A stretch of DNA of 34,511 nucleotides from Bacteroidia bacterium (GTDB taxonomy: Bacteria; Bacteroidota; Bacteroidia; Flavobacteriales; Flavobacteriaceae). Of the stretch, positions 2,401-31,133 are shown piece by piece (position 1 is the first letter of the stretch; every line of letters begins with the position of its first letter). Where the stretch lies: assembly GCA_030429455.1 (NCBI GenBank), contig JAUIFC010000020.1, positions 1 through 34,511 on the forward strand, read 5' to 3'. The notes below the pieces were generated by a model, which had not been told where the DNA came from, ran no database searches, and saw only the letters and a program-made list of their open reading frames with translations. A program made the translations under genes and the position numbers.

Positions 2401-3444
2401 ATGAAAATCATGAAAGAGACTTATTTTTTACCTGTATTACATGATGATTTTAGCAAGGAACTATATGACAAAACCGATAAAGAACTTAGATTGTTAGTTT
2501 CTGAATATATAAATGCTCGCATCCAATTTATTCAAGAAGTGTGGTCTCATCATATAAAGCCTAGTGATGATTATATTTCAAACAATCCAGAAGAATTAGC
2601 AGATAGAATTATCAAAGTGTTAACTAATCGACTCTTTAATTACAAATCGAAGCGAAGTATTAACCAAATTGTTTTTAAAGTTCGTAAAAACTTACTAAAA
2701 CAAATAAAGAATGGCTCTACAATACATTTTTATCTTTTATACAATGGTGGATACAGGGCTTCACCACTAAGTAACGAACCATCTCTTATTTTTGAACCTG
2801 ATCAAACAGAATTAATGCTGCTATATCAAATTTCATTGTTGAGAAAAGAAATTTCTAAGATATGTAGCTTTGATATAGATTTTTCTGTTGTAGTAAATAA
2901 TGGTGTAGCGAAGTGGGTGAATGATATTCCAATTAGTGCTACGGATAATTATTCTAATAAAATTAGAAAAATGATTAGGTTTTTTGGTGCTGAAAAAAAT
3001 ATACATATACTGCTGCAGTCAGAGCTTAATGGTTTCGAACCAAATCTTACATTCAAAAATTTAGAAAATCATTCCACAATTTCAGATAATGAGCATCTTA
3101 TCGTAGAACGTTTTCTAGGTCGATCATGCAGTCGAGAGGAAGCTATATACAGGTCAGGGATTTACAAATTAGCTGAATCTAAGTGGGCCGAGGATATCGC
3201 TCCAATAATTAAAAGTACACAAGGAATAGTAATGAGGCAAGTGGCACATCCCGAAATGCTTTCTTTTCGACCATTTCCTGGTGGTGCAATTCGTATTCAA
3301 AATGGAAGTTTTGGTTTTCACTACCTAAAAAATAAACTTAGACCAAAACTTATCACTTCAAAATTGATTGATACGTGTAATGTAAAATGGATCGAGTGTC
3401 ATTTTTCATTAGACATAGACAGGCCAAATTATAGCAAAAGTTAA
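2401..3444 (+). CDS. Divergent isocyanide-synthase-like protein (DIT1/PvcA superfamily, tentative)
   Basis: 347 residues, no signal peptide or membrane segment, so cytosolic. Known PvcA/IsnA enzymes convert the amine of Tyr or Trp to an isonitrile using ribulose-5-phosphate. Seen: a spacing of motifs that follows PvcA: 'STIHFYLLYNGGY' (106-118) where PvcA has its 'IHFVLPAFP' strand; 'PDQTELMLLYQISLL' (133-147) matching the 'PD.aE..AL..L' helix; 'FSVVVNNGVAKWVND' (161-175) matching the 'itI.sDGrvF.D' strand; 'YSNKIRKMI' (184-192); and 'VAHPE' (281-285) in the place of 'SIHPQ', followed by a C-terminal strand region 'GGAIRIQNGSFGFHYL'. Identity is low and this is a hand comparison. Only 7 bases separate it from the next gene, a synthetase, so the two are probably co-translated. 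Alternative: an uncharacterised tailoring enzyme of another fold. The operon context is much surer than the family. Confidence 0.45.
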   Translation: MKIMKETYFLPVLHDDFSKELYDKTDKELRLLVSEYINARIQFIQEVWSHHIKPSDDYISNNPEELADRIIKVLTNRLFNYKSKRSINQIVFKVRKNLLKQIKNGSTIHFYLLYNGGYRASPLSNEPSLIFEPDQTELMLLYQISLLRKEISKICSFDIDFSVVVNNGVAKWVNDIPISATDNYSNKIRKMIRFFGAEKNIHILLQSELNGFEPNLTFKNLENHSTISDNEHLIVERFLGRSCSREEAIYRSGIYKLAESKWAEDIAPIIKSTQGIVMRQVAHPEMLSFRPFPGGAIRIQNGSFGFHYLKNKLRPKLITSKLIDTCNVKWIECHFSLDIDRPNYSKS

Positions 3445-3451
3445 TGATGCT

Positions 3452-6349
3452 ATGAATAAAAATTTAGTCTGGCAAGAGTCTATTTTTTCGCCTCCTGAAA
3501 AGCATAAAACCCATAAATCATTACCTGAATCTCTCTTAGAAGTAGTTACAAAATGGCCAAATTCGGCAGCTTTGGTTTCTGAAGGTATTACCTATAATTA
3601 TATTGACTTGGCTAATCGTGCAGCAGGTTTAGCTGAGGAAATAAATCAATTTAGCCATCTCCCTGGACCATTAGCTTTGTTGCAAAAACCTGGAATAGAC
3701 GCGATTGCTGCGTGGTTCGCCTGTACCATTTCAGGTAGACCCTTCCTTTTATTGGAGCCTGATCATCCTCCTGCACGACTAATTGAACTTATCAAAAGTT
3801 CAGGTAGTAGATTAGCATTAGTTGATCATTCGACCTCACACCTTCTTTTAAATTTGCCTAGCGTGACTCAGCTTATCTCTGACGGTCGTTCAATACAATT
3901 GCAAAAAATCGAAGGACTGTTTGCAGACGATCCCGCAATAATATTTCCTACTTCTGGCTCAACAGGCAGTCCCAAATTAATCACTTATTCGTCCATAACA
4001 ATCCAGATTAAAGTCCAAAGTTCAATTAAACTGATGTGTGTACCAGAAAAAACTAAGGTCCTCATCGCTGGATCACATAGCAATTATGGATTTCTACATC
4101 ACGCTTTGGTGTTTTTGTTTTCTGGAAGCACGATATATCTAACTGACATTAAGACCTTAGGCTTTAATTCTATTCTAGATGCCATTTTAAAAAACGATGT
4201 ACGCCACGTTAGATTTACACCGTCTTTGTTTAGAAAACTTGCCATATTGCCAAAAGCTAAAAAAGCATTAAGGCTTTTAGACGCAGTGCGATTTTCAGGC
4301 GAACCATTACTAAAAAGTGATTTAGAACTAGCACAATCTACATTAAGAGCAGATTGCTTAATTCAAAATGTTTATGGCAGTACAGAAAGTTCACTTTTTA
4401 TTTGGAGCAGTACCAATAATAATACTCAAAATATAAAGTCGACAGTTCCTATTGGTAAAATATACCCTCTCTCCAGTTATGTAATTAGAATAATAAATGG
4501 ACATGATAAAAACACTAAAATAGGAGAGCTTTTACTACGATCAAAATACCATGCTATCGGAGATTTTGAAGAAGGGTTTATATCCAAAACCCGTTTTCCT
4601 CTCTTAGATGAAAGTACAGGAGAACGCCTATATGCAACTGGAGACATCGTAGAACAATTGGATGACGGAAACCTAATTCACCTTGGACGGCTTGGACGAA
4701 TGGTTAAAATTAGAGGGAATCGAGTCTTCCTTTCTGAAGTAGAACAGCAACTACGTTCTTTTAAGGGAATAACGGCTGCAGTAGTTTTAGATAAAATGGA
4801 GAAAAGTGATACTGTCCTTTATGGTTTTATCACAACAAAGAATAAATATTTGACAACTCATAATTTACGCCAAGAACTTTCTACAAAGTTGCCTGATTTT
4901 ATGATTCCTAAAAGCATCTTAATCATAGATAAGATACCTTTAATGGCTGGTGGTAAAACAGATTACTTAAAGCTTAAAAAGTTAATTTCAACTCCAGATA
5001 CATTTACAAAAACAGATGAGCCTAAGGATGATTACGACCAGCTTATCCAAATTTGGGATTCTGTTCTTTGGAAAGGAGCACATAAGTATCACTCAGACTT
5101 CTTTTCCCTTGGAGGTGATTCTTTAAGTTACATGATATTATTGGCTGATCTTGAGCAGAAATTTAAGAAAACTATTCGTGTAGAAGAATTTAGAGCCAAT
5201 AGTACCATGGAGCATCTTGCACAGCTTTTGGGAGTATGTCGATCTCCTCATGAAGATGTAATAAAGTACAAATCTTTGCAAATCAGGCTTTTTTCGGCAA
5301 GTTCTAACTCCTCCAAAGGCGTAGCAATGTCTGTACCTGGATATTATGGATTATCTAATGCCTACCCCTATTATAAGGCTGGATTTTTTCACGATTATGA
5401 CATCTGGGTTGTGGAATTTCCTATTGAAAATGGCAACATGCTACATGAAAACAGGTGGTGGAGAGCTACTCAAGAAATAGTACTAGGTGTAAAGGAAGGT
5501 ATTATTCCCAGACCACATATTGTTTTCGGTTTCTCATTTGGTGGAGGCTTAGCGTGGTTGCTTGGTCGTCTCTTGGCAGGCTCGCAATTGGGTGCTAAAT
5601 TCGTAGTTATTGTTGATGCACCACCGTTACACAAACGATGGAGAACTCGAAACAAGGCAGTGAAAAAAGCATTAAAAAATCTACTACCTAACAAATTGCC
5701 TAAAGTACTTCATATACAACGAGCTATCGTAAGCAAATTTGAGACGAACTGGAAATTTAGACAAAAATGGAATGTAAAAGATAATATACACAAATTCATA
5801 GAACTCCCAACGGTAACTCACTTAGAAATGATTAATGTTCAAATGCTCTCTCTTGTTAAAGATGCTGTTCTAGCGTTTCTTAATGAAAAACAAAGTGACT
5901 TTGATTGGAATTCGGTCTTACCACCACCAAACTTGATAGGTTGTCAGATTTTTTATGCAATCAACGGAAACGATATTGCATTTCAATACGTAATGACTGA
6001 GCTAAAAAATGGCATTGATAAATTCAACCATGAAGAATTAATAAATATTGCAATTCTATTGTATAATATTGATGAACTTAAATCAAATGAAATAGTACAA
6101 TATGTGCAAAAAAAATGGTCACACTATCCATCTGTACATTTTTTACACCGTCGTATTAAACGTAATAATAACCTACTTTTCTTTGGTGATATCCCTAAAT
6201 TAATTCCTTTTACTATGGTTTCAATCGAAAACAATTTAGCCGCATTAAAAAAAATAGAAAAAACACCTAAACCGTATCTAGTAAGACTTTTATATTTAAC
6301 TCATGATGTTGCATATGCTTTATTTACTTCTAGGTATAATAACAGGTAA
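3452..6349 (+). CDS. Single-module NRPS-like synthetase: adenylation, thiolation, thioesterase
   Basis: 965 residues. Adenylation domain about 20-510: A3 'PTSGSTGSPK' (166-175), A5 'NVYGSTES' (306-313, with Ser where Pro is usual), 'YATGD' (394-398), A8 'GRLGRMVKIRGNRV' (412-425), catalytic Lys502 in 'GGKTD'. Carrier domain about 525-598 with phosphopantetheine Ser557 in 'LGGDSL'. Thioesterase about 610-810 with Ser695 in 'GFSFGG', Asp722 in 'VIVDAPP', His790. A tail of some 150 residues (811-965) has no match I know. There is no condensation domain. The position of the amine-binding Asp (Asp235 of GrsA) falls on Asn211 or Tyr212, as in aryl- or keto-acid-activating domains. The protein should activate one carboxylic acid, tether it, and release or join it by the thioesterase, as known A-T-TE furanone and quinone synthetases do. 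Pairing with the gene 7 bases upstream suggests that its product is the substrate. Product unknown. Confidence 0.85.
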   Translation: MNKNLVWQESIFSPPEKHKTHKSLPESLLEVVTKWPNSAALVSEGITYNYIDLANRAAGLAEEINQFSHLPGPLALLQKPGIDAIAAWFACTISGRPFLLLEPDHPPARLIELIKSSGSRLALVDHSTSHLLLNLPSVTQLISDGRSIQLQKIEGLFADDPAIIFPTSGSTGSPKLITYSSITIQIKVQSSIKLMCVPEKTKVLIAGSHSNYGFLHHALVFLFSGSTIYLTDIKTLGFNSILDAILKNDVRHVRFTPSLFRKLAILPKAKKALRLLDAVRFSGEPLLKSDLELAQSTLRADCLIQNVYGSTESSLFIWSSTNNNTQNIKSTVPIGKIYPLSSYVIRIINGHDKNTKIGELLLRSKYHAIGDFEEGFISKTRFPLLDESTGERLYATGDIVEQLDDGNLIHLGRLGRMVKIRGNRVFLSEVEQQLRSFKGITAAVVLDKMEKSDTVLYGFITTKNKYLTTHNLRQELSTKLPDFMIPKSILIIDKIPLMAGGKTDYLKLKKLISTPDTFTKTDEPKDDYDQLIQIWDSVLWKGAHKYHSDFFSLGGDSLSYMILLADLEQKFKKTIRVEEFRANSTMEHLAQLLGVCRSPHEDVIKYKSLQIRLFSASSNSSKGVAMSVPGYYGLSNAYPYYKAGFFHDYDIWVVEFPIENGNMLHENRWWRATQEIVLGVKEGIIPRPHIVFGFSFGGGLAWLLGRLLAGSQLGAKFVVIVDAPPLHKRWRTRNKAVKKALKNLLPNKLPKVLHIQRAIVSKFETNWKFRQKWNVKDNIHKFIELPTVTHLEMINVQMLSLVKDAVLAFLNEKQSDFDWNSVLPPPNLIGCQIFYAINGNDIAFQYVMTELKNGIDKFNHEELINIAILLYNIDELKSNEIVQYVQKKWSHYPSVHFLHRRIKRNNNLLFFGDIPKLIPFTMVSIENNLAALKKIEKTPKPYLVRLLYLTHDVAYALFTSRYNNR

Positions 6350-6545
6350 ATGATCAAAATCTACAAAAAGGTATACTTTATAAACATATTTTTATTTCAA
6401 CTATAACATAAACCTAATAAAACTGATGAAAATACCTTTAAATAAAGCAACAGATACTCGATTTTAGTAAAATTTAGAAATTCTAAATCCTATATTCCTA
6501 ACAGTCAAATTTTCAAATTATTACATATGCATATTATCACATTAA

Positions 6546-9389
6546 TCAATGCGCCTCTAACCAATTTTGCCCGACACCAACTTCCACTTCTAGTGGCACT
6601 TCTAATTCGTAGGCGCTTTCCATCTCTGTTTTGATCAATGTTTTTAACTCTTCTAGTTCAGTTTTATGCACATCGAAAATCAATTCGTCATGAATCTGTA
6701 GGAGCATTTTAGATTTATAATTGCCCTCTTCCAGTTTCTTATGAATGTTTATCATGGCCAGTTTAATGATATCTGCGGCACTTCCTTGAATTGGCGCATT
6801 TACGGCATTTCGTTCTGCACCGCTGCGCACCATGCCATTACTCGCATTGATGTCTTTTAAATAGCGACGACGACCCATCACTGTTTTGACATATTCGTTT
6901 TCTCTGGCAAACTCGATTTGCTCATTGATATATGCTCGTAATTTTGGGTAGGTTTTATAATACGTTTCTATAAGCTCTTTAGACTCCGAACGCGTCAATG
7001 TGGTTTGGTTGCTCAACCCAAAAGCAGAAACCCCATAGATGATTCCGAAGTTAACCGTCTTTGCCTGACTACGTTGTTCTCGAGTGACATCTTCCAAAGC
7101 AATATCAAAAATTTTAGCTGTCGTGGACGCGTGAATGTCTTCGCCATTTTGAAAGGCTTTAATCATGGTTTCTTCTTGGCTCAAAGCAGCAATTATTCTT
7201 AATTCGATTTGAGAATAATCTGCGGCAATCAATACATAATTTTCATCACGAGGGACGAAAGCGGTTCGCACTTGTCGTCCACGCTCCGTTCGAATAGGGA
7301 TATTTTGTAAATTCGGATTTGTCGAACTCAATCGACCTGTTGCCGCGACAGTTTGCATAAATTCGGTATGGATACGACCTGTCTTTTTTTGAATTTGCTT
7401 TGGTAAGGCATCGACATAAGTACTTTTCAATTTAGAAAGCCCACGCCAATCCAACACATCTTGAGCAATTTTGTGTTCTTTAGCATGAAAGGACAATACG
7501 TCTTCGGCTGTAGAAAATTGACCAGATTTGGTTTTTTTAGGTTTTTTAGCAATTTGAAGTTTTCCAAACAAAATTTCACCCAACTGTTTTGGCGATCCTA
7601 TCTTAAACTCTTCACCTGCTTGTTCGTAAATGTTTTTTTCAAGTTCAGCAATGTCGGTTTCTAAGGATTTTGAGATTTCTTTTAAAACCTCAGCATTAAG
7701 ATGAATACCCTCGGTTTCCATATCGGCTAATACGCGGACTAATGGAATTTCAAGGGTTTCAAATAAAGGCTTGTTATGGGCTTGTTTCAATTCTTCTTCA
7801 AAAAATTGCTTGAGTTGCAAGGTGATATCTGCGTCTTCAACGGCATATTCTGTTATTCGATCTAGCTCAACATCCCGCATATTGCCTTGATTTTTACCCT
7901 TTTTCCCTATCAAATCTTCAATAGATTTAGGCGAATAATTGAGATAGGTTTCAGACAACACATCCATGTTATGGCGCATATCAGGGTTGATGATGTAGTG
8001 TGCCAACATGGTATCGAAGAGCTTGCCTTTTACAGAAATCCCATGCTGCTTGAGTACTTTGATGTCGTACTTTAAATTCTGACCTACTTTTTCTATATCC
8101 TCATTTTCAAAAAATGGTTGTAAAAGCTCCAGTCTCTGTTTTACTTGTGCTTCATCTTCTGGAAATGGCACATAAAACCCTTTATGACTTTGCCAAGAAA
8201 AGGCGATTCCAACCAACTTTGCATCTAGTGTGTTAAGACTTGTGGTTTCGGTATCAAAACACACGGAAGCTTGTTTGAGCATATTTTTAACCAATAGTTG
8301 GATCGAAATCGTCGTGTTTGCAAACTGGTAATGATGATCTGTATTTTTAAGAGACTTATAGCCCTGAAAATCTTCAGCCTTTAAGTCGGGTTTTGACAAA
8401 TCATTCCCAAATAAAGAATATTGTCCTGAACCTGGTGTTTGTTTGACTTCGTTGGTTTGAGTCGTTCTGTTTGAAGAAATGTTCTCCGGTTGATCATCCG
8501 TTCCTTGATTAAACAGCTTTAGAAATTGGTCTGTGAGTCTTCTAAATTCCAACTCTTTAAATATCTCAATAACCTTTTCGACATCAGGTTTGCTCAACTC
8601 ATAATCTACCGCATCAAATTGGACATCACAATCGGTTATGATTGTAGCTAGTTTTTTAGACAATAATCCTAATTCGGCATTAGCTTCGACCTTTTCTTTC
8701 ATTTTTCCTTTAAGTTGGTCGATGTTTTCCAACAGGCCTTCTAAACTTCCAAACTGTTGAATAAATTTTTTAGCCGTTTTATCACCTACCCCTGGTAATC
8801 CAGGAATATTATCAGAAGCATCGCCCATCATTCCCAAATAATCGATGACTTGCTCAGGACGTTCGACGCCAAATCGTTTTTGGACTTCTGGAATTCCCCA
8901 AATTTCAATGGCATTTCCCATTCTTGCAGGTCTGTACATAAAAATATTGTCGCTCACCAATTGTCCAAAATCTTTATCTGGTGTAACCATGAACACTTTG
9001 TAGTTTTCCTTTTCAGCTTGTTTAGCTAGGGTTCCAATGATATCATCCGCCTCTAAACCAGACAATTCTACAACAGGTATGTGCATAGCTTTCAGTACAT
9101 TTTTAATTATTGGAACAGATTGCCGAATTACATCAGGCGTTTCATCTCTATTAGCCTTGTATTCAGCATATAACTCTGTACGTTCTGCACTACCATCTTT
9201 ATCAAAACAAACGGCCAGATGGTCAGGATTTTCTCGTTTGATGACATCAAAAAGCGAATTGGTAAAACCCAAAATTGCCGATGTATCTTGCCCTTTGGAA
9301 TTTATTCTAGGATTTTTGATTAAAGCGTAATAGCCTCTAAAGATTAAGGCATAAGCATCTAAAAGGAAGAGTCGTTTTTGTTTGGACAT
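6546..9389 (-). CDS. polA: DNA polymerase I
   Basis: 947 residues, full length for PolA. It fills gaps and removes RNA primers during replication and repair. 5'-3' exonuclease about 1-290: 'GLEADDIIGTLA' (111-122) and 'GDASDNIPGLPGVGDKTAKK' (189-208). Proofreading exonuclease about 340-540: Asp379 and Glu381 in 'FDTET', 'NLKYDIKVL' (438-446), 'VEDADIT' (517-523), so the proofreading site is intact. Polymerase about 555-947: motif A 'DYSQIELR' (Asp724), O-helix 'KTVNFGIIYG' with Lys777 and Phe781 (Phe is the ddNTP-discriminating form), motif C 'QIHDELIF' (His900-Asp901). Convergent with the synthetase gene, with a 196-base gap holding no clear terminator. Its leader contains one arm of the inverted repeat that frames the neighbouring four-helix gene. 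Confidence 0.98.
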   Translation of the reverse strand: MSKQKRLFLLDAYALIFRGYYALIKNPRINSKGQDTSAILGFTNSLFDVIKRENPDHLAVCFDKDGSAERTELYAEYKANRDETPDVIRQSVPIIKNVLKAMHIPVVELSGLEADDIIGTLAKQAEKENYKVFMVTPDKDFGQLVSDNIFMYRPARMGNAIEIWGIPEVQKRFGVERPEQVIDYLGMMGDASDNIPGLPGVGDKTAKKFIQQFGSLEGLLENIDQLKGKMKEKVEANAELGLLSKKLATIITDCDVQFDAVDYELSKPDVEKVIEIFKELEFRRLTDQFLKLFNQGTDDQPENISSNRTTQTNEVKQTPGSGQYSLFGNDLSKPDLKAEDFQGYKSLKNTDHHYQFANTTISIQLLVKNMLKQASVCFDTETTSLNTLDAKLVGIAFSWQSHKGFYVPFPEDEAQVKQRLELLQPFFENEDIEKVGQNLKYDIKVLKQHGISVKGKLFDTMLAHYIINPDMRHNMDVLSETYLNYSPKSIEDLIGKKGKNQGNMRDVELDRITEYAVEDADITLQLKQFFEEELKQAHNKPLFETLEIPLVRVLADMETEGIHLNAEVLKEISKSLETDIAELEKNIYEQAGEEFKIGSPKQLGEILFGKLQIAKKPKKTKSGQFSTAEDVLSFHAKEHKIAQDVLDWRGLSKLKSTYVDALPKQIQKKTGRIHTEFMQTVAATGRLSSTNPNLQNIPIRTERGRQVRTAFVPRDENYVLIAADYSQIELRIIAALSQEETMIKAFQNGEDIHASTTAKIFDIALEDVTREQRSQAKTVNFGIIYGVSAFGLSNQTTLTRSESKELIETYYKTYPKLRAYINEQIEFARENEYVKTVMGRRRYLKDINASNGMVRSGAERNAVNAPIQGSAADIIKLAMINIHKKLEEGNYKSKMLLQIHDELIFDVHKTELEELKTLIKTEMESAYELEVPLEVEVGVGQNWLEAH

Positions 9390-9396
9390 ATGATAT

Positions 9397-9411
9397 TTAT
9401 GATTTGAGATT
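9397..9411. repeat. Left arm of imperfect inverted repeat around the four-helix gene
   Basis: TTATGATTTGAGATT on the plus strand. The reverse complement of 9892-9906 is TTATGATTTCAGATT, a 14 of 15 match. The arms enclose 510 bases with one gene. The arm sits 8 bases before the polA start, inside its leader. Confidence 0.5.
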
Positions 9412-9438
9412 GAGGAATTAGGATTGGGGATTAAGTTA

Positions 9439-9807
9439 TTAAGACTTGTGATTTGTTCGTTTTTTTACAGTTTTAATACTAGCTACAAAAATAGCAACTA
9501 GTTCATCTGCTTCTTTGAATAAATACAGGATTTCTGATGTTTCTCTTATCAAATTTAATTCATGAATCATCTCAAGCCAAAATAGGCTTTCGTCTGCTTC
9601 TTCCAAAACAGTACCCATTTTATGAATAAAATCTCTGTCACTTTTGGCTCTGCAAACAGCTCTATAATTAGACGCTACAGATGTACCTGACCTCATAATT
9701 TGATCTGCAATGATCCAACCTACTCTATTATTTGGTAGTTTTTCAGCTAATCTTATTATAGCTTTTGCAAATTCCTTGGTTCTATTTTTTAATTCGTTAC
9801 TAGTCAT
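9439..9807 (-). CDS. Four-helix bundle protein, 23S rRNA intervening-sequence (IVS) type
   Basis: 122 residues, entirely helical by eye, matching the four-helix bundle / 'S23' family: 'ELKNRTKEFAKAIIRLAEKL', 'IADQIMRSGTSVASNYRAV', 'DFIHKMGTVLEEADESLFWL', 'LIRETSEILYLFKEADELVAI'. Members were first found encoded in intervening sequences of bacterial 23S rRNA and also occur as stand-alone genes; the biochemical role is unsettled, with RNA or nucleic-acid binding proposed. Here the gene stands outside any rRNA operon, 49 bases before polA on the same strand, between imperfect inverted repeats. It could be co-transcribed with polA. I see no catalytic motif. Start ATG at 9807 is the only sensible one because the first helix follows at once. 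Confidence 0.9.
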   Translation of the reverse strand: MTSNELKNRTKEFAKAIIRLAEKLPNNRVGWIIADQIMRSGTSVASNYRAVCRAKSDRDFIHKMGTVLEEADESLFWLEMIHELNLIRETSEILYLFKEADELVAIFVASIKTVKKRTNHKS

Positions 9808-9891
9808 AAAGTTAAAATAAGAGTTAATAAATCTATATATAAGTAATATTTATAATTTCAACTGTGAACAAAATGACTTGTTACAATCAAA

Positions 9892-9906
9892 AATCTGAAA
9901 TCATAA
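9892..9906. repeat. Right arm of imperfect inverted repeat around the four-helix gene
   Basis: AATCTGAAATCATAA on the plus strand, the imperfect reverse complement (14 of 15) of 9397-9411. It lies in the divergent gap between the four-helix gene and menC. Confidence 0.5.
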
Positions 9907-10000
9907 GTCAAAAATGTTGAGTTTAAAAATACAAAATTGAAGTTAACTCTAGGATAAATGAAGTGCCTATTGTTTATTTTTCGCAACCAAATAAACCTGA

Positions 10001-11053
10001 ATGAGAGCATTTTTTAAATCGTATTTACTCAACTTTAAAACGCCAAGTGGAACCTCAAGAGGGATTTTAAAACAGAAAAAAACATACTTTCTTGTTATTC
10101 AGAACGATGAAAAAATTGGCATAGGAGAATGTGGTCTTTTTGAAGGCTTAAGCTATGACGATTCTCCTATTTATGAAGATAAATTGTATTGGGTTTGCGC
10201 AAACATTCATTTGGGTTTGGACAAGCTACTTCAGGAAACGATTGAATTTCCTTCCATCCAATTTGGCTTGGAAATGGCATTTCTTTCATTAAATGCCAAG
10301 GACAATTTTGATCTCATTCCATCCAAATTTACGAAAGGAGAAGACAGTATTCAAATTAATGGTTTGATATGGATGGGTGAAAAAGCCTTCATGAAATCTC
10401 AAATTGAAGAAAAAATAAAACAAGGCTTTAGTTGTGTAAAGCTTAAAATCGGCGCAATCCATTTTGATGAGGAACTAGAGCTTTTAAGGTATATCAGAAA
10501 GCAGTTTACAAGCAGAGATATAGAATTGCGTGTCGATGCCAACGGCGCATTTTCTCCAGAAAAGGCTTTGGACAAACTTAAGAAACTTAGTGAATTTGAT
10601 TTACATAGTATTGAGCAACCCATAAAACAAGGCCAATGGCAGGAGATGGCAAAGCTATGCGAAAAGACGCCTTTGCCCATTGCTTTAGACGAGGAGTTAA
10701 TCGGCATTACAGATGTAACAAATCGCGAGAAGTGCTTACAAACCATAAAACCTCAATTTATCATTTTGAAACCAAGTTTAGTAGGCGGTATGATGAATTC
10801 AAAACAATGGATGCAATTGGCAGATAAGTTCCACATCGGATATTGGATAACAAGTGCTCTGGAAAGTAATATTGGCCTTAATGCCATAGCTCAGTTTACC
10901 TACGATTTGGGGCTAAAATTACCTCAAGGCCTTGGTACTGGTGGATTATTTACAAATAATTTTGAAAGTCCATTAGAAGTTATTGGTGAGCGATTGCATT
11001 ATATTGCAAAACGAAAATGGACAAATCTTGAAACTTTAACAGATCAAATCTGA
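10001..11053 (+). CDS. menC: o-Succinylbenzoate synthase (enolase superfamily)
   Basis: 350 residues. Dehydrates SHCHC to o-succinylbenzoate in menaquinone synthesis, the quinone used by Flavobacteriia. The enolase-superfamily barrel has its acid-base and metal residues: 'VKLKIG' with Lys147 and Lys149, Asp179 in 'RVDANG', Glu205 in 'SIEQPI', Asp230 in 'ALDEEL' and Lys257 in 'ILKPSLVGG'. The second metal-ligand motifs and paired lysines are complete, so it should be active. Dipeptide epimerases share this fold, but linkage to menE 1.2 kb downstream favours MenC. It starts an operon with the CPBP protease gene (66-base gap). Start ATG 10001 leads straight into the capping domain. Confidence 0.93.
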   Translation: MRAFFKSYLLNFKTPSGTSRGILKQKKTYFLVIQNDEKIGIGECGLFEGLSYDDSPIYEDKLYWVCANIHLGLDKLLQETIEFPSIQFGLEMAFLSLNAKDNFDLIPSKFTKGEDSIQINGLIWMGEKAFMKSQIEEKIKQGFSCVKLKIGAIHFDEELELLRYIRKQFTSRDIELRVDANGAFSPEKALDKLKKLSEFDLHSIEQPIKQGQWQEMAKLCEKTPLPIALDEELIGITDVTNREKCLQTIKPQFIILKPSLVGGMMNSKQWMQLADKFHIGYWITSALESNIGLNAIAQFTYDLGLKLPQGLGTGGLFTNNFESPLEVIGERLHYIAKRKWTNLETLTDQI

Positions 11054-15236: not shown

Positions 15237-17522
15237 TTAATTATACTTCAAATCAAAGCGATCTAAATGCATCACTTTGGCCCAGGCCTCTACAAAGTCG
15301 TTTACAAATCTTTCTTTGTAATCGTCTGATGCATATACTTCGGCAATCGCTCTTAATTCCGAGTTAGATCCAAAAATTAAATCGACTCGAGAGGCTGTCC
15401 ATTTTTTATTATTTGTTCCTCTTTCAAACCCTTCAAACTCTTTTTTCATTTCCGAAGTGGCCTTCCACTCGTAATCCATGCTCAATAGATTTCTAAAGAA
15501 ATTATTATTTAATTGTCCAGGTGTATCGGTCAATATTCCTATATCAGATCCATCATAGTTGGCATCCAAGGCTCTCATTCCTCCAACTAAAACCGTTAAT
15601 TCTGGCGGTGTTAAAGTTAATAGCTGAGCTTTATCCACTAATAATTGCTCTGGGGAAAGGGTATAATCTTTGTCACTGTAGTTTCTAAAACCATCGGACA
15701 TTGGCTCTAACAAAGCCATGCTTGCTTTGTCCGTCTGGTCCTGATTGGCATCTGTTCGACCCGCACTAAAAGGCACATTGACAGAGTAGCCTGCTTTTTT
15801 AGCAGCATCTTCAATCGCAGCATTACCACCTAAAACAATAAGGTCGGCAAGAGAGACTTTTCTTGAAGAATTAGCATTGAAACTAGATTGAATGCCCTTG
15901 TAGACTTTAAGTACTTTTTGTAATACTTCAGGATTATTAGAATTCCAACTTACCTGTGGTTCTAGAGCTATTCTGGCACCATTGGCACCACCTTTTCGAT
16001 CCGAATCTCTAAAAGTTGCTGCAGATGCCCAGGCCGTACTTACCATTTGTCCAGTAGTTAATCCTGATGCCAAAATCTCTACTTTTAACGCCTTAATATC
16101 GCTTGAATTTATCATGCTATAATCTGCTACTGGAATTGGATCTTGCCATAGAAAATCCTCCGTAGGCGCTTCTGGTCCAAGATAGGTGGATTTCGGGCCC
16201 ATATCTCTGTGTGTTAATTTGAACCAAGCTCTAGCAAAAGCTTTGTCAAATTCTTCTGGATTTTCATAAAATCGTTTAGAAATTTCTTTGTAAATAGGGT
16301 CTTTTATCATCGAAATATCGGTCACGAGCATGGTAGGTTTAACCTCTATATTTTCATCGAATGCATCTGGATACATTTTCTCAGGATTCACTGCCTCGAA
16401 CTGATGTGCGCCTGCTGGGCTTTTAACTAATTTCCATTCGTTTTCAAATAAACTTTTAAAGTAGCCATGATTCCATTTTGTTGGTGTTAATGTCCAAGTG
16501 ACTTCCAATCCTGAAGTGATAGCGTCTGGACCTTTCCCACTTTTGTAATCGCTTTTCCATCCAAAACCCTGTTCTTCAATAGACGCGCCTTCAGGACTTT
16601 TTCCCATATGAGAACCTGGTGCTTTTCCATGTGTTTTGCCAAGGGTATGACCACCAGCAATCAAAGCGACTGTTTCTTCATCATTCATCCCCATTCTTCC
16701 AAAGGTTTCTCTTATATCTTTTGCTGCCAATACTGGATCAGGATTTCCATTAGGGCCTTCAGGATTCACATAGATTAGCCCCATTTGTACAGCGGCTAAA
16801 GGAATTTCTAAATCACCATTTTTGCTGTATCTTCTGTCATTGGCCAGAAATTCGGTTTCTGCACCCCAATACACATCGCTTTCTGGCTCCCATACGTCTT
16901 CTCGACCTGCCGAAAAACCTAAGGTTTCAAACCCCATATTTTCAAAAGCGACGTTACCAGCTAGAATCATCAAATCTGCCCAGGATATTTTCTGACCGTA
17001 TTTCTGTTTAACAGGCCATAATAATCGTCTTGCTTTGTCTAGATTGGCATTGTCAGGCCAAGAATTTAATGGCGCAAAACGCTGTTGCCCAGCTCTCGAA
17101 CCACCTCGACCATCTCCCGTTCGATAAGTTCCGGCACTATGCCAAGCCATTCTGATAAACAAACCGCCATAGTTTCCAAAATCGGCTGGCCACCAGTCTT
17201 TAGAATCGGTTAAAGTCTTTTCGATATCCCGTTTAAGCTCTTCATAATTTAGCTTTGAAAACTCTTCTCTGTAATTAAAATCGTCGCCTAAGGGATTTGA
17301 TTTTTGAGAATTCTGTCTTAAGACATCGAGATCAAGGCTGTTAGGCCAAAAAAACTTGTTGGTTGGCCCTTCGTTGGCTACTACAGATCCACTTGAACCA
17401 TTTCCAAATCCAAAAGGGCATTCGCCTTTGGCTTCGCTGTTTTCTGCAAAACTATCGTTACTTTTCTCACTACAACTCAGGATAAAGAATCCTAAGAACA
17501 GGACTAATAATTTAGATTTCAT
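15237..17522 (-). CDS. katG: Catalase-peroxidase with lipoprotein signal peptide
   Basis: 761 residues, bifunctional haem catalase-peroxidase that removes hydrogen peroxide. Distal site 'IRMAWHSAG' (Arg124, Trp127, His128), Tyr251 in '[10 protein letters not shown]' and Met277 in 'GRMGMND' supply the Trp-Tyr-Met adduct needed for catalase activity. The proximal haem ligand is His292 in '[10 protein letters not shown]'. The C-terminal, haem-free half is also present and full length. Unusual: the N-terminus '[17 protein letters not shown]' is a lipoprotein signal with lipobox ILSC and Cys17. No other Met lies before residue 125, so the signal cannot be a start-site error. The enzyme is thus predicted to sit on a membrane facing the periplasm or beyond, while most KatG are cytosolic. 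Divergent from oxyR, with its own promoter and terminator. Confidence 0.97.
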
Positions 17523-17631: not shown

Positions 17632-18567
17632 ATGAATATACAGCAGATAGAATATGTGCTCGCCGTCGTAGATTTAAAAAATTTTCAATTGGCAGCAGAA
17701 AAGTGTTTTGTCACCCAATCGACCTTAAGCACGATGATTGGAAAATTTGAAAACGAAATAGACTTAAGGATTTTTAACCGAAAAACCAAACCTGTAACCA
17801 TTACTAAAGAAGGCAAGGTAATTGTTGAACATATGCGCAAGGCTAAATATGAAATTGACGCCTTAAAAAATGTAGTTTCTGATTTAAAAGGCAAATTAGA
17901 AGGCGAAATTCAAATTGGTATTATTCCTACTATAGCTCCTTACCTATTGCCTTTAGTTTATCAGGATTTTGAAAATACAATTCCTCATGTAAAGGTCAAA
18001 ATTAGAGAAATGACGACTCCTGACATAAGAAAGGCATTAAAAAGCAGAACCATAGATATTGGTATTTTAGCACTTCCTTTGGAAGACAAAGAGCTTGTGG
18101 AAACCGAAATATATAACGAACCATTTTTAGTCTATGATTGTACCGGGAACATTTCTTCTTTTGAAGCCACATTAAATGATTTAGATTACGACAAACTATG
18201 CCTGCTTGAGGAAGGCCATTGCCTGCGCACCCAAGTATTAAAAATATGCGAAAAATCTTTGATGCATTCTAAAGCCAGAAACACATTTGACTTTCAATCA
18301 GGCTCAATGGATAGTTTGATTAACATCACGAAAATCCGAAAAGGCATAACCCTCATACCACAACTGGCTATAAATAGTCTGGTATTGTCCGACGGCGAAA
18401 CTATAAAACCGTTTACAAAATCACCACCTGCAAGAACGATAGGATTTGCCACGCACAAATATTTTGTAAAAAGAAAATTGAAAGAGCAACTTATTGCCAT
18501 CATCAAAAAAAATGTGAAAGACATGTTGCCTCAATCTCACCAAAATGAAATTATAAATCCCTTATGA
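17632..18567 (+). CDS. oxyR: Hydrogen-peroxide-sensing LysR-type regulator OxyR
   Basis: 311 residues. N-terminal winged helix-turn-helix (about 1-60: 'FQLAAEKCFVTQSTLSTMIGK'), linker helix, then the periplasmic-binding-like sensor domain. The decisive feature is 'GHCLRTQVLKIC': Cys197 and Cys206, nine apart in the same frame as Cys199 and Cys208 of E. coli OxyR, which form the peroxide-driven disulfide. It should therefore sense peroxide directly. It is divergent from katG over a 109-base gap, the classic arrangement for a regulator and its target. The next gene starts inside its stop codon, so that lipoprotein is made from the same message. Confidence 0.95.
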   Translation: MNIQQIEYVLAVVDLKNFQLAAEKCFVTQSTLSTMIGKFENEIDLRIFNRKTKPVTITKEGKVIVEHMRKAKYEIDALKNVVSDLKGKLEGEIQIGIIPTIAPYLLPLVYQDFENTIPHVKVKIREMTTPDIRKALKSRTIDIGILALPLEDKELVETEIYNEPFLVYDCTGNISSFEATLNDLDYDKLCLLEEGHCLRTQVLKICEKSLMHSKARNTFDFQSGSMDSLINITKIRKGITLIPQLAINSLVLSDGETIKPFTKSPPARTIGFATHKYFVKRKLKEQLIAIIKKNVKDMLPQSHQNEIINPL

Positions 18568-30258: not shown

Positions 30259-30735
30259 ATGAGACATATATTTCCACTTTTAGTAGTCCTTTTTCTTTGG
30301 AGTTGTCAATCCAATGCGCAACAGAATAAAACAAAGAAAGCGTATGAAGTTACAAAGACAGATGCAGAATGGAAGGCAGAATTGACTGAGTTAGAGTATT
30401 TGGTGCTCAGAAAAGAGGCCACAGAAAGACCATTTACCAGTGAGTTATTAGATGTTAAGAACGAAGGCACATTTGTTTGTGCAGCATGCCAAAACCCACT
30501 TTACGAAACCAAACATAAATACGATAGTGGTTCAGGTTGGCCAAGTTTTGACAGGGCAATAGAAGGTAGTTTAGATTATTCTTCGGATCGAAAGTTAGGA
30601 TACAAGAGAGTCGAACTCCTTTGTGGTAAATGTGGTGGACATTTAGGACATATGTTTAACGATGGGCCGAAACAAACGACGGGAAAGAGACATTGTATTA
30701 ATGGTATAGCCTTAGATTTTATTCCAAAACAATAG
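30259..30735 (+). CDS. msrB: Peptide methionine-R-sulfoxide reductase, lipoprotein form
   Basis: 158 residues. Repairs Met-R-sulfoxide in proteins. Lipoprotein signal with lipobox ending at Cys16 ('LFLWSC'), so it acts in the periplasm on a membrane. MsrB domain: structural zinc pairs 'CAAC' (74-77) and 'CGKC' (122-125), catalytic Cys146 in 'RHCINGIALDF', and 'GHLGHMFNDGP'. The site that usually holds the resolving Cys ('SGCGWPSF' in the neighbour) is 'SGSGWPSF' here, Ser91. It therefore needs a different way of being re-reduced. Followed after 2 bases by the cytosolic paralogue. Confidence 0.95.
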   Translation: MRHIFPLLVVLFLWSCQSNAQQNKTKKAYEVTKTDAEWKAELTELEYLVLRKEATERPFTSELLDVKNEGTFVCAACQNPLYETKHKYDSGSGWPSFDRAIEGSLDYSSDRKLGYKRVELLCGKCGGHLGHMFNDGPKQTTGKRHCINGIALDFIPKQ

Positions 30736-30737
30736 AT

Positions 30738-31133
30738 ATGAGCAAAGAAAAAAATTTAGATTGGAAATCAAAATTATCTCCTGAGGAGTATCATGTGCTG
30801 AGGGAAAAAGGCACAGAACGGCCTTTTACAGGTAAGTACAATTTGCATTTTGCCAAAGGAACTTATGTATGCAGAGGTTGCGGAACACCTTTGTTTAAAA
30901 GCAATTCTAAGTTTGACAGTGGTTGTGGATGGCCAAGCTTTGACGAAGCTATTGAAGGTGCCGTGAGATACGAGCCAGATCATTCCTTAGGCATGCGTCG
31001 CATCGAAATTTTATGCAATAATTGCGATGGTCATCTCGGACATGTATTCGACGATGGACCAACAGAAACCGGACAACGGTATTGTGTTAATTCACTAAGT
31101 ATAGATTTTAACCCTAAAAACAATGAGTTATGA
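30738..31133 (+). CDS. msrB: Peptide methionine-R-sulfoxide reductase, cytosolic form
   Basis: 131 residues, no signal. Same fold as the gene before it. Zinc pairs 'CRGC' (45-48) and 'CNNC' (93-96), resolving Cys63 in 'SGCGWPSF', catalytic Cys116 in 'RYCVNSLSIDF'. A classic thioredoxin-recycled MsrB. A tandem duplicate of the lipoprotein form (2-base gap), giving one enzyme per compartment. Its stop is overlapped by the start of the next gene (ATGA). Confidence 0.97.
   Translation: MSKEKNLDWKSKLSPEEYHVLREKGTERPFTGKYNLHFAKGTYVCRGCGTPLFKSNSKFDSGCGWPSFDEAIEGAVRYEPDHSLGMRRIEILCNNCDGHLGHVFDDGPTETGQRYCVNSLSIDFNPKNNEL

Follow-up and report, generated by a model that had tools for sequence, protein, structure and literature searches.

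A divergent PvcA/DIT1-superfamily gene followed by an adenylation-thiolation-thioesterase gene: a candidate two-enzyme pathway in Bacteroidota and Pseudomonadota

What might be made by two adjacent genes of a Flavobacteriaceae genome, one for an enzyme that resembles isocyanide synthases (ICSs) and one for a single-module synthetase? This question is raised by contig JAUIFC010000020.1 of the Bacteroidia bacterium assembly GCA_030429455.1 (310 contigs, 86% complete), which was analysed over its entire length of 34,511 nucleotides, starting at its base 1, and is called the window here. Open reading frame (ORF) 1 (2401..3444, on the plus strand like all features of the pair) codes for a divergent PvcA/DIT1-superfamily protein of 347 residues. 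ORF2 (3452..6349) codes for a protein of 965 residues with a C-terminal extension that resembles a nonribosomal peptide synthetase (NRPS) with a single adenylation-thiolation-thioesterase (A-T-TE) module. The gap between them (3445..3451) reads TAA-TGATGCT-ATG from the ORF1 stop to the ORF2 start; the two-gene layout and the 7-base gap given in the initial annotation, made from the sequence alone, were both confirmed. Together the two proteins may form a specialised-metabolite pathway of two enzymes, a proposal for which we see the balance as even.

ORF1 was compared together with four relatives, from a Comamonadaceae metagenome-assembled genome (MAG; L002), a Paludibacter MAG (L003), and the genomes G850 (L019) and G772 (L020). 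An hhalign comparison of this five-row family with nine canonical PvcA-type proteins gave a score of 54.3 (probability 91.8) over 101 columns in the N-terminal half of the ORF1 family, compared to 18.8 for the reversed profile and 26.3 for the best of 200 column shuffles. The family PF05141 (DIT1_PvcA), with a curated cut-off of 26.4 bits, was reached by L020 (27.2 bits), while L002 (23.0), L019 (21.9) and L003 (20.3) scored below it. In NCBIfam, ORF1 of the window had no match at E<=0.01; two of the four relatives reached TyIsonSynPvcA, but only at E 0.04 and 0.13, one reached nothing and one matched unrelated models only. The sole Pfam match of ORF1 alone at E<=10 was to an unrelated family (E 0.032), and a search of the PDB sequences with ORF1 alone gave nothing meaningful, PvcA included.

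A structure model of ORF1 was predicted from three sequences, with a mean predicted local distance difference test score (pLDDT) of 65, a predicted template modelling score (pTM) of 0.68 and values below 50 for residues 282-322 and 325-347; a model from the single sequence (pLDDT 39) was discarded. Searched against 350,542 PDB chains, the model had as its eight best matches PvcA (3e59) and PIsnA (9dh4, a Tyr complex, and 9dhm) chains, which were also the only ones at E<=0.001 (4e-6 to 6.5e-4), with modest TM-scores of 0.34-0.50 by query length. Tyrosyl-tRNA synthetases came next, from E 3.6e-3, and a tRNA-synthetase or cyclodipeptide-synthase fold was rejected for ORF1, both ranking behind PvcA (E 3.6e-3 and 0.08). 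Nothing in a viral fold library matched at E<=0.001. The comparison with PvcA structures suggested in the initial annotation was thereby borne out, with no confident match to an unrelated fold. Based on the profiles and the model, we place ORF1 in the PvcA superfamily by fold and homology; no reaction is claimed with this placement because the canonical motifs are absent and the C-terminal halves do not align with confidence.

Three motifs of ORF1 could be located. LYNGGYRAS (residues 113-121; 2737..2763) is present in all five rows of the family alignment. In the hhalign alignment PDQTE (residues 133-137; 2797..2811) falls on the canonical PvcA motif PDxxE, which none of the 14 proteins in the comparison (nine canonical and five ORF1-type) has lost. 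NNGVAKWVND (residues 166-175; 2896..2925) lies near the position of the canonical SDGxVFxD, the hhalign and by-eye registers being one residue apart. We took SDG, RLSIHP and TPWH as the canonical isonitrile-synthase motifs, a choice of our own based on their invariance in the canonical set. By its sequence ORF1 is not a canonical isonitrile synthase, and we do not claim isonitrile formation for it because all three motifs are absent. The statement that its motif spacing follows PvcA/DIT1 held with regard to family homology and fold, as seen in the hhalign score and the PDB chains, but not for ORF1 alone against PF05141 or for the canonical C-terminal motifs, which are missing.

ORF2 was described as a complete A-T-TE protein without a condensation domain, and this was upheld by its Pfam domains and catalytic residues. 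The adenylation (A) domain spans 3542..4957 (AMP-binding, residues 31-365, E 5.2e-30; AMP-binding_C, residues 429-502) and the thiolation domain 5039..5230 (PP-binding, residues 530-593), with the carrier Ser557 encoded at 5120-5122. The thioesterase (TE) domain (5252..5887, residues ~601-812, with Ser695/Asp722/His790) and the poorly conserved C-terminal extension (5888..6346, residues ~813-965) were bounded by eye. Neither a condensation domain nor the transferase domain PF02458 was among the Pfam families of ORF2 at E<=0.01. For the TE family, the window protein scored 20.2 bits, under the cut-off of 26.4, and two full orthologues scored over it (26.7 and 27.1). Ser557, Lys502 of the A domain and the TE residues Ser695/Asp722/His790 are kept in all three full-length ORF2 proteins, including that of the window. 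These three copies represent two lineages, L019 and L020 being close kin. Between the lineages the whole protein is 43-44% identical; the A domain of the window is 54-55% identical to the other two, and the extension of ~150 residues has 17-20% identity to the two orthologues. The source genome has two ORFs above the cut-off for PF01648 (phosphopantetheinyl transferase), so the carrier domain of ORF2 could be armed.

The substrate pocket of the A domain was read by alignment only, with the GrsA numbering used in the review PMC11253843 and with known codes. Tyr212 of ORF2 (4085..4087) is found at the place of the amine-binding Asp (D235 in GrsA), on which the LgrA and SrfA-C alignments agree. 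In the available sections of PMC11253843, Asp235 is tied to the alpha-amine, and A domains for hydroxy and keto acids are described without it, with McyG as an exception. The ten-residue pocket code, YGHRRSVLFK, is identical in the three full-length ORF2 proteins, and Arg254 and Arg280 of the pocket are present in each of them; two pocket arginines may mean that the ORF2 substrate carries an anionic group. The SNY residues could also be read as those of a DhbE-like domain for aryl acids; this was rejected, as ORF2 keeps YGxTE and the same sections give another A5 motif for aryl acids.

The search for the pair in other genomes, also proposed in the initial annotation, recovered it outside the family of the window. 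ORF2 directly follows an ORF1-type gene in four of the five cases known to us, the window included, and in all four the genes are separate with ORF1 first. L019 holds a complete pair (ORF1 6431-7441, ORF2 7481-10405), as does L020 on the other strand (ORF1 9634-8621, ORF2 8575-5651), and both pairs have a DEAD/Helicase_C_2 helicase gene on one side and a hybrid sensor kinase gene on the other. In L003, ORF1 is followed by an ORF2 that is cut off by the contig end after 119 codons (60% identical). In the fifth case, L002 (8640-14142), the ORF1-type gene is preceded by transposase and integrase-core frames and followed by genes for a TctC-type receptor and an AMP-binding ligase and by a 199-residue ORF of no assigned family; the stand-alone ligase, two genes downstream, again places an adenylating enzyme nearby. 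Between L019 and L020 the ratio of nonsynonymous to synonymous substitution rates (dN/dS) was 0.19 for ORF1 and 0.22 for ORF2; the genes on either side of the pair gave 0.15 and 0.21, and the extension of ORF2 a looser 0.48. Both genes of the pair are under purifying selection. Chance ORFs were set aside in view of the conservation across two phyla and the dN/dS of 0.19-0.22.

Members of the ORF1 family are few and widely dispersed. Two relatives, L002 (40% identity in the best segment) and L003 (53%), came from a pattern-based scan of 84,980 species genomes, a type of scan that finds only close relatives. The profile searches used samples of genomes that partly overlap, and matches were counted at E<=0.001. 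Among 250 genomes of the family of L002, three had a match: the L002 genome, G850 (L015, L019) and G772 (L016, L020). With ORF1 alone, the source genome was the only one with a match among 27 genomes of the window's genus and among 199 of its family, and with a three-row profile it was the only one among 395 genomes of the phylum. Likewise, L003 was the only genome with an ORF1-type match among 150 of its family, and L002 the only one among the 300 sampled from its order and the 398 from its phylum. Searches for ORF1 relatives in plasmids and viral contigs were empty. The TE-plus-extension region of ORF2 had no plasmid match; with the whole of ORF2 there were matches in 950 plasmid records, but no match spanned more than 80% of the protein. 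L003 belongs to the Bacteroidota, to which the T9SS-sorted protein of the window also points, and the L002 group to the Pseudomonadota; the complete pairs in the family of the Comamonadaceae MAG make the flavobacterial framing of the initial annotation too narrow. Such a distribution, in two phyla and not in close kin, points to horizontal transfer.

In the pathway that we propose, ORF1 would act on an amino acid and leave it without its free alpha-amine, which would have become either an isonitrile (the group made by PvcA and CrmA) or a formamide (the proposal made for Dit1). ORF2 would then take over: its A domain, with Tyr in place of the amine-binding Asp, would adenylate the amine-masked acid and load it on Ser557, and its Ser-Asp-His thioesterase would transfer the acid to an acceptor, giving an ester, a ring or a dimer. 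We infer the reaction of ORF1, the use of its product by ORF2 and the mode of release, and the choice of ester, ring or dimer is our guess. An oxazole formed from an isocyano-acyl thioester would be chemically attractive. The earlier suggestion of an amine-free isocyano acid loaded by ORF2 agrees with an A domain that lacks the amine-binding Asp; its isonitrile part went unsupported, with RLSIHP, TPWH and SDG absent and with Dit1 as a proposed precedent for N-formylation (PMC7345447, in the part available), as did the hand-over from ORF1 to ORF2 and the kind of product released.

Among known systems, a precedent is CrmA of Aspergillus fumigatus, which is described in part of PMC9381783 as one protein with ICS, adenylation, thiolation and transferase domains. 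Its pathway yields isocyanoisovaleric acid, N-formylvaline and the mannitol esters of both, the ester-forming enzyme being given there as yet unknown. In CrmA as in the pair, an ICS-type enzyme is combined with adenylation and thiolation; the differences are that CrmA is a single polypeptide, from fungi, and has a transferase domain, whereas the window has two bacterial genes and a TE. By this analogy, the best reading of the pair is that of a putative split bacterial counterpart of CrmA. The available part of PMC5974471 reports ICS-NRPS proteins only in fungi, and a literature search, with most subscription journals outside its reach, found no bacterial counterpart. In Fusarium gene cluster family (GCF) 8, a single-domain ICS stands beside an NRPS gene (PMC10153163), so that the two functions lie on separate genes of one cluster, as in our pair; that system is fungal, and according to the same part of the paper the majority of ICS clusters in which NRPS-like and terpene synthase genes also occur belong to GCF 8. 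A more far-reaching version of our proposal, which we consider possible but rather doubtful, is that a separate PvcA branch without the canonical motifs makes a new amine-modified acid, from which a dedicated A-T-TE protein forms a small ester, dimer or oxazole-like ring. The pair would then be the first ICS-NRPS-type pathway in bacteria, complete with two genes, and gene transfer would have carried it between Bacteroidota and Pseudomonadota.

The PvcA/IsnA enzymes (PF05141; 3e59, 9dh4, 9dhm), canonical isonitrile synthases that convert the amine with ribulose-5-phosphate, resemble ORF1 in fold and in the N-terminal sequence profile, but ORF1 differs from them by the lack of SDG, RLSIHP and TPWH. 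Of 100 genomes of the window's family, one (G072; L013/L017) has a canonical PvcA, which scores 258 bits against PF05141 and lies next to a TauD-type gene. A Hymenobacter plasmid (L022:2323-3957) carries an annotated isonitrile synthase of 544 residues, longer than PvcA, followed by TauD-type and flavin adenine dinucleotide (FAD)-dependent genes.

Several results weigh against the proposed pathway. ORF1 alone had no PF05141 match in Pfam at E<=10 and was missed by the PF05141 search of its source genome, and PvcA was not listed at E<=10 when the three-row profile was searched against the PDB sequences. No confident alignment was obtained between the C-terminal halves of the ORF1 family and of canonical PvcA, and the low-confidence part of the ORF1 model lies mostly in this half. 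RLSIHP and TPWH are found in 9/9 canonical proteins but in 0/4 full-length ORF1-type proteins, and SDG (searched as [CA][SA]DG) in 9/9 compared to 0/5. ORF1 of L003 (3174-3944) has an in-frame gap of ~90 residues (~220-308 of the window ORF1, by eye), which is either a real deletion or an assembly error. The TE region and the extension of ORF2 had no relative among the PDB sequences. Finally, the pvc/isn clusters L013 and L022 have a TauD-type gene beside the synthase, whereas no TauD-type iron/2-oxoglutarate oxygenase (PF02668) was seen in the 28 of 41 listed window ORFs that were scanned (the other 13 overlap them on other frames), in a scan that starts at window base 1.

The missing motifs would also suit an ORF1 that is not an isonitrile synthase but N-formylates its substrate, with ORF2 loading an N-formyl amino acid. 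Yeast Dit1 is PvcA-like too and perhaps no isonitrile synthase, as part of PMC7345447 argues that it makes N-formyl tyrosine; however, its partner there is the P450 Dit2 and not an A-T-TE protein. We think N-formylation unlikely, as the likeness to Dit1 is one of description, the available text of PMC7345447 leaves the Dit1 donor unknown, and that of PMC10153163 still files Dit1 as an ICS. Since no full-length relative keeps RLSIHP or TPWH, ORF1 might instead use the PvcA fold for a wholly different reaction. Its substrate might, for instance, bear a second anionic group, and Arg254 and Arg280 in the ORF2 pockets would fit such an acid. A different reaction would surprise us, given the invariant PDxxE and the aligned N-terminal halves, and the pocket positions rest on alignment only.

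The same domain order as in ORF2 is reportedly found in RalA and atromentin synthases, A-T-TE enzymes that condense two aryl-keto acids. The RalA-type furanone/quinone synthases, said to act on aryl-keto acids, have in common with ORF2, by description, the A-T-TE order, the absence of a condensation domain and the loss of the amine-binding Asp, and we know of no PvcA-like partner for them. That ORF2 is an enzyme of this kind, with ORF1 acting on its product, seems very unlikely to us. The lost Asp would match keto-acid A domains, but position 235 is Tyr in ORF2 and Ala, Gly, Val or Ile in the examples from the available sections of PMC11253843. Moreover, the position of ORF1 ahead of ORF2 in all four pairs is a poor fit to this order of reactions, though no exclusion of it.

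As for the surroundings of the pair, its GC content is 0.28-0.38, compared to 0.32-0.40 elsewhere in the first 16 kb of the window; this difference was not decisive and a compositional island was set aside. A scan of the window for promoters and terminators was uninformative (25 found versus 18.3, sd 4.7, in shuffles; 1 found versus 2.0). Upstream of ORF1 lies a gene for a protein with a type IX secretion system (T9SS) sorting domain (Por_Secre_tail, 576-2036). The gene polA was present in all five genus relatives examined, and in none of the five were the T9SS-type gene, ORF1 or ORF2 found beside it (8.5-9.3 kb on that side). The 3' side of polA, before window position 6546, looks like a variable spot among these relatives: by eye, L057 and L060 have one common arrangement and the other three differ. 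Directly behind polA in the order of the sequence is an ORF of the 23S rRNA intervening sequence protein (IVP) family (PF05635; 9439-9807, minus strand), matched in two of the five relatives. Further along, a peroxidase-family protein (15237-17522, minus strand) with two PF00141 stretches is catalase-peroxidase-like and adjoins a LysR-type regulator (17632-18567), and two neighbouring SelR-domain genes, of the methionine sulfoxide reductase B type, are located at 30259-31130.

What appears to be new in this locus is a rare variant, a motif-poor branch of PvcA paired with an A-T-TE protein in bacteria. Genome sequences are a poor guide to isonitriles, and ORF1 of the window is missed by standard profiles. 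Expressed in a laboratory host, a two-gene system would make it directly testable whether isonitriles are still formed by PvcA-fold enzymes that lack the canonical motifs, and whether the ICS-NRPS logic of fungi has a bacterial version.

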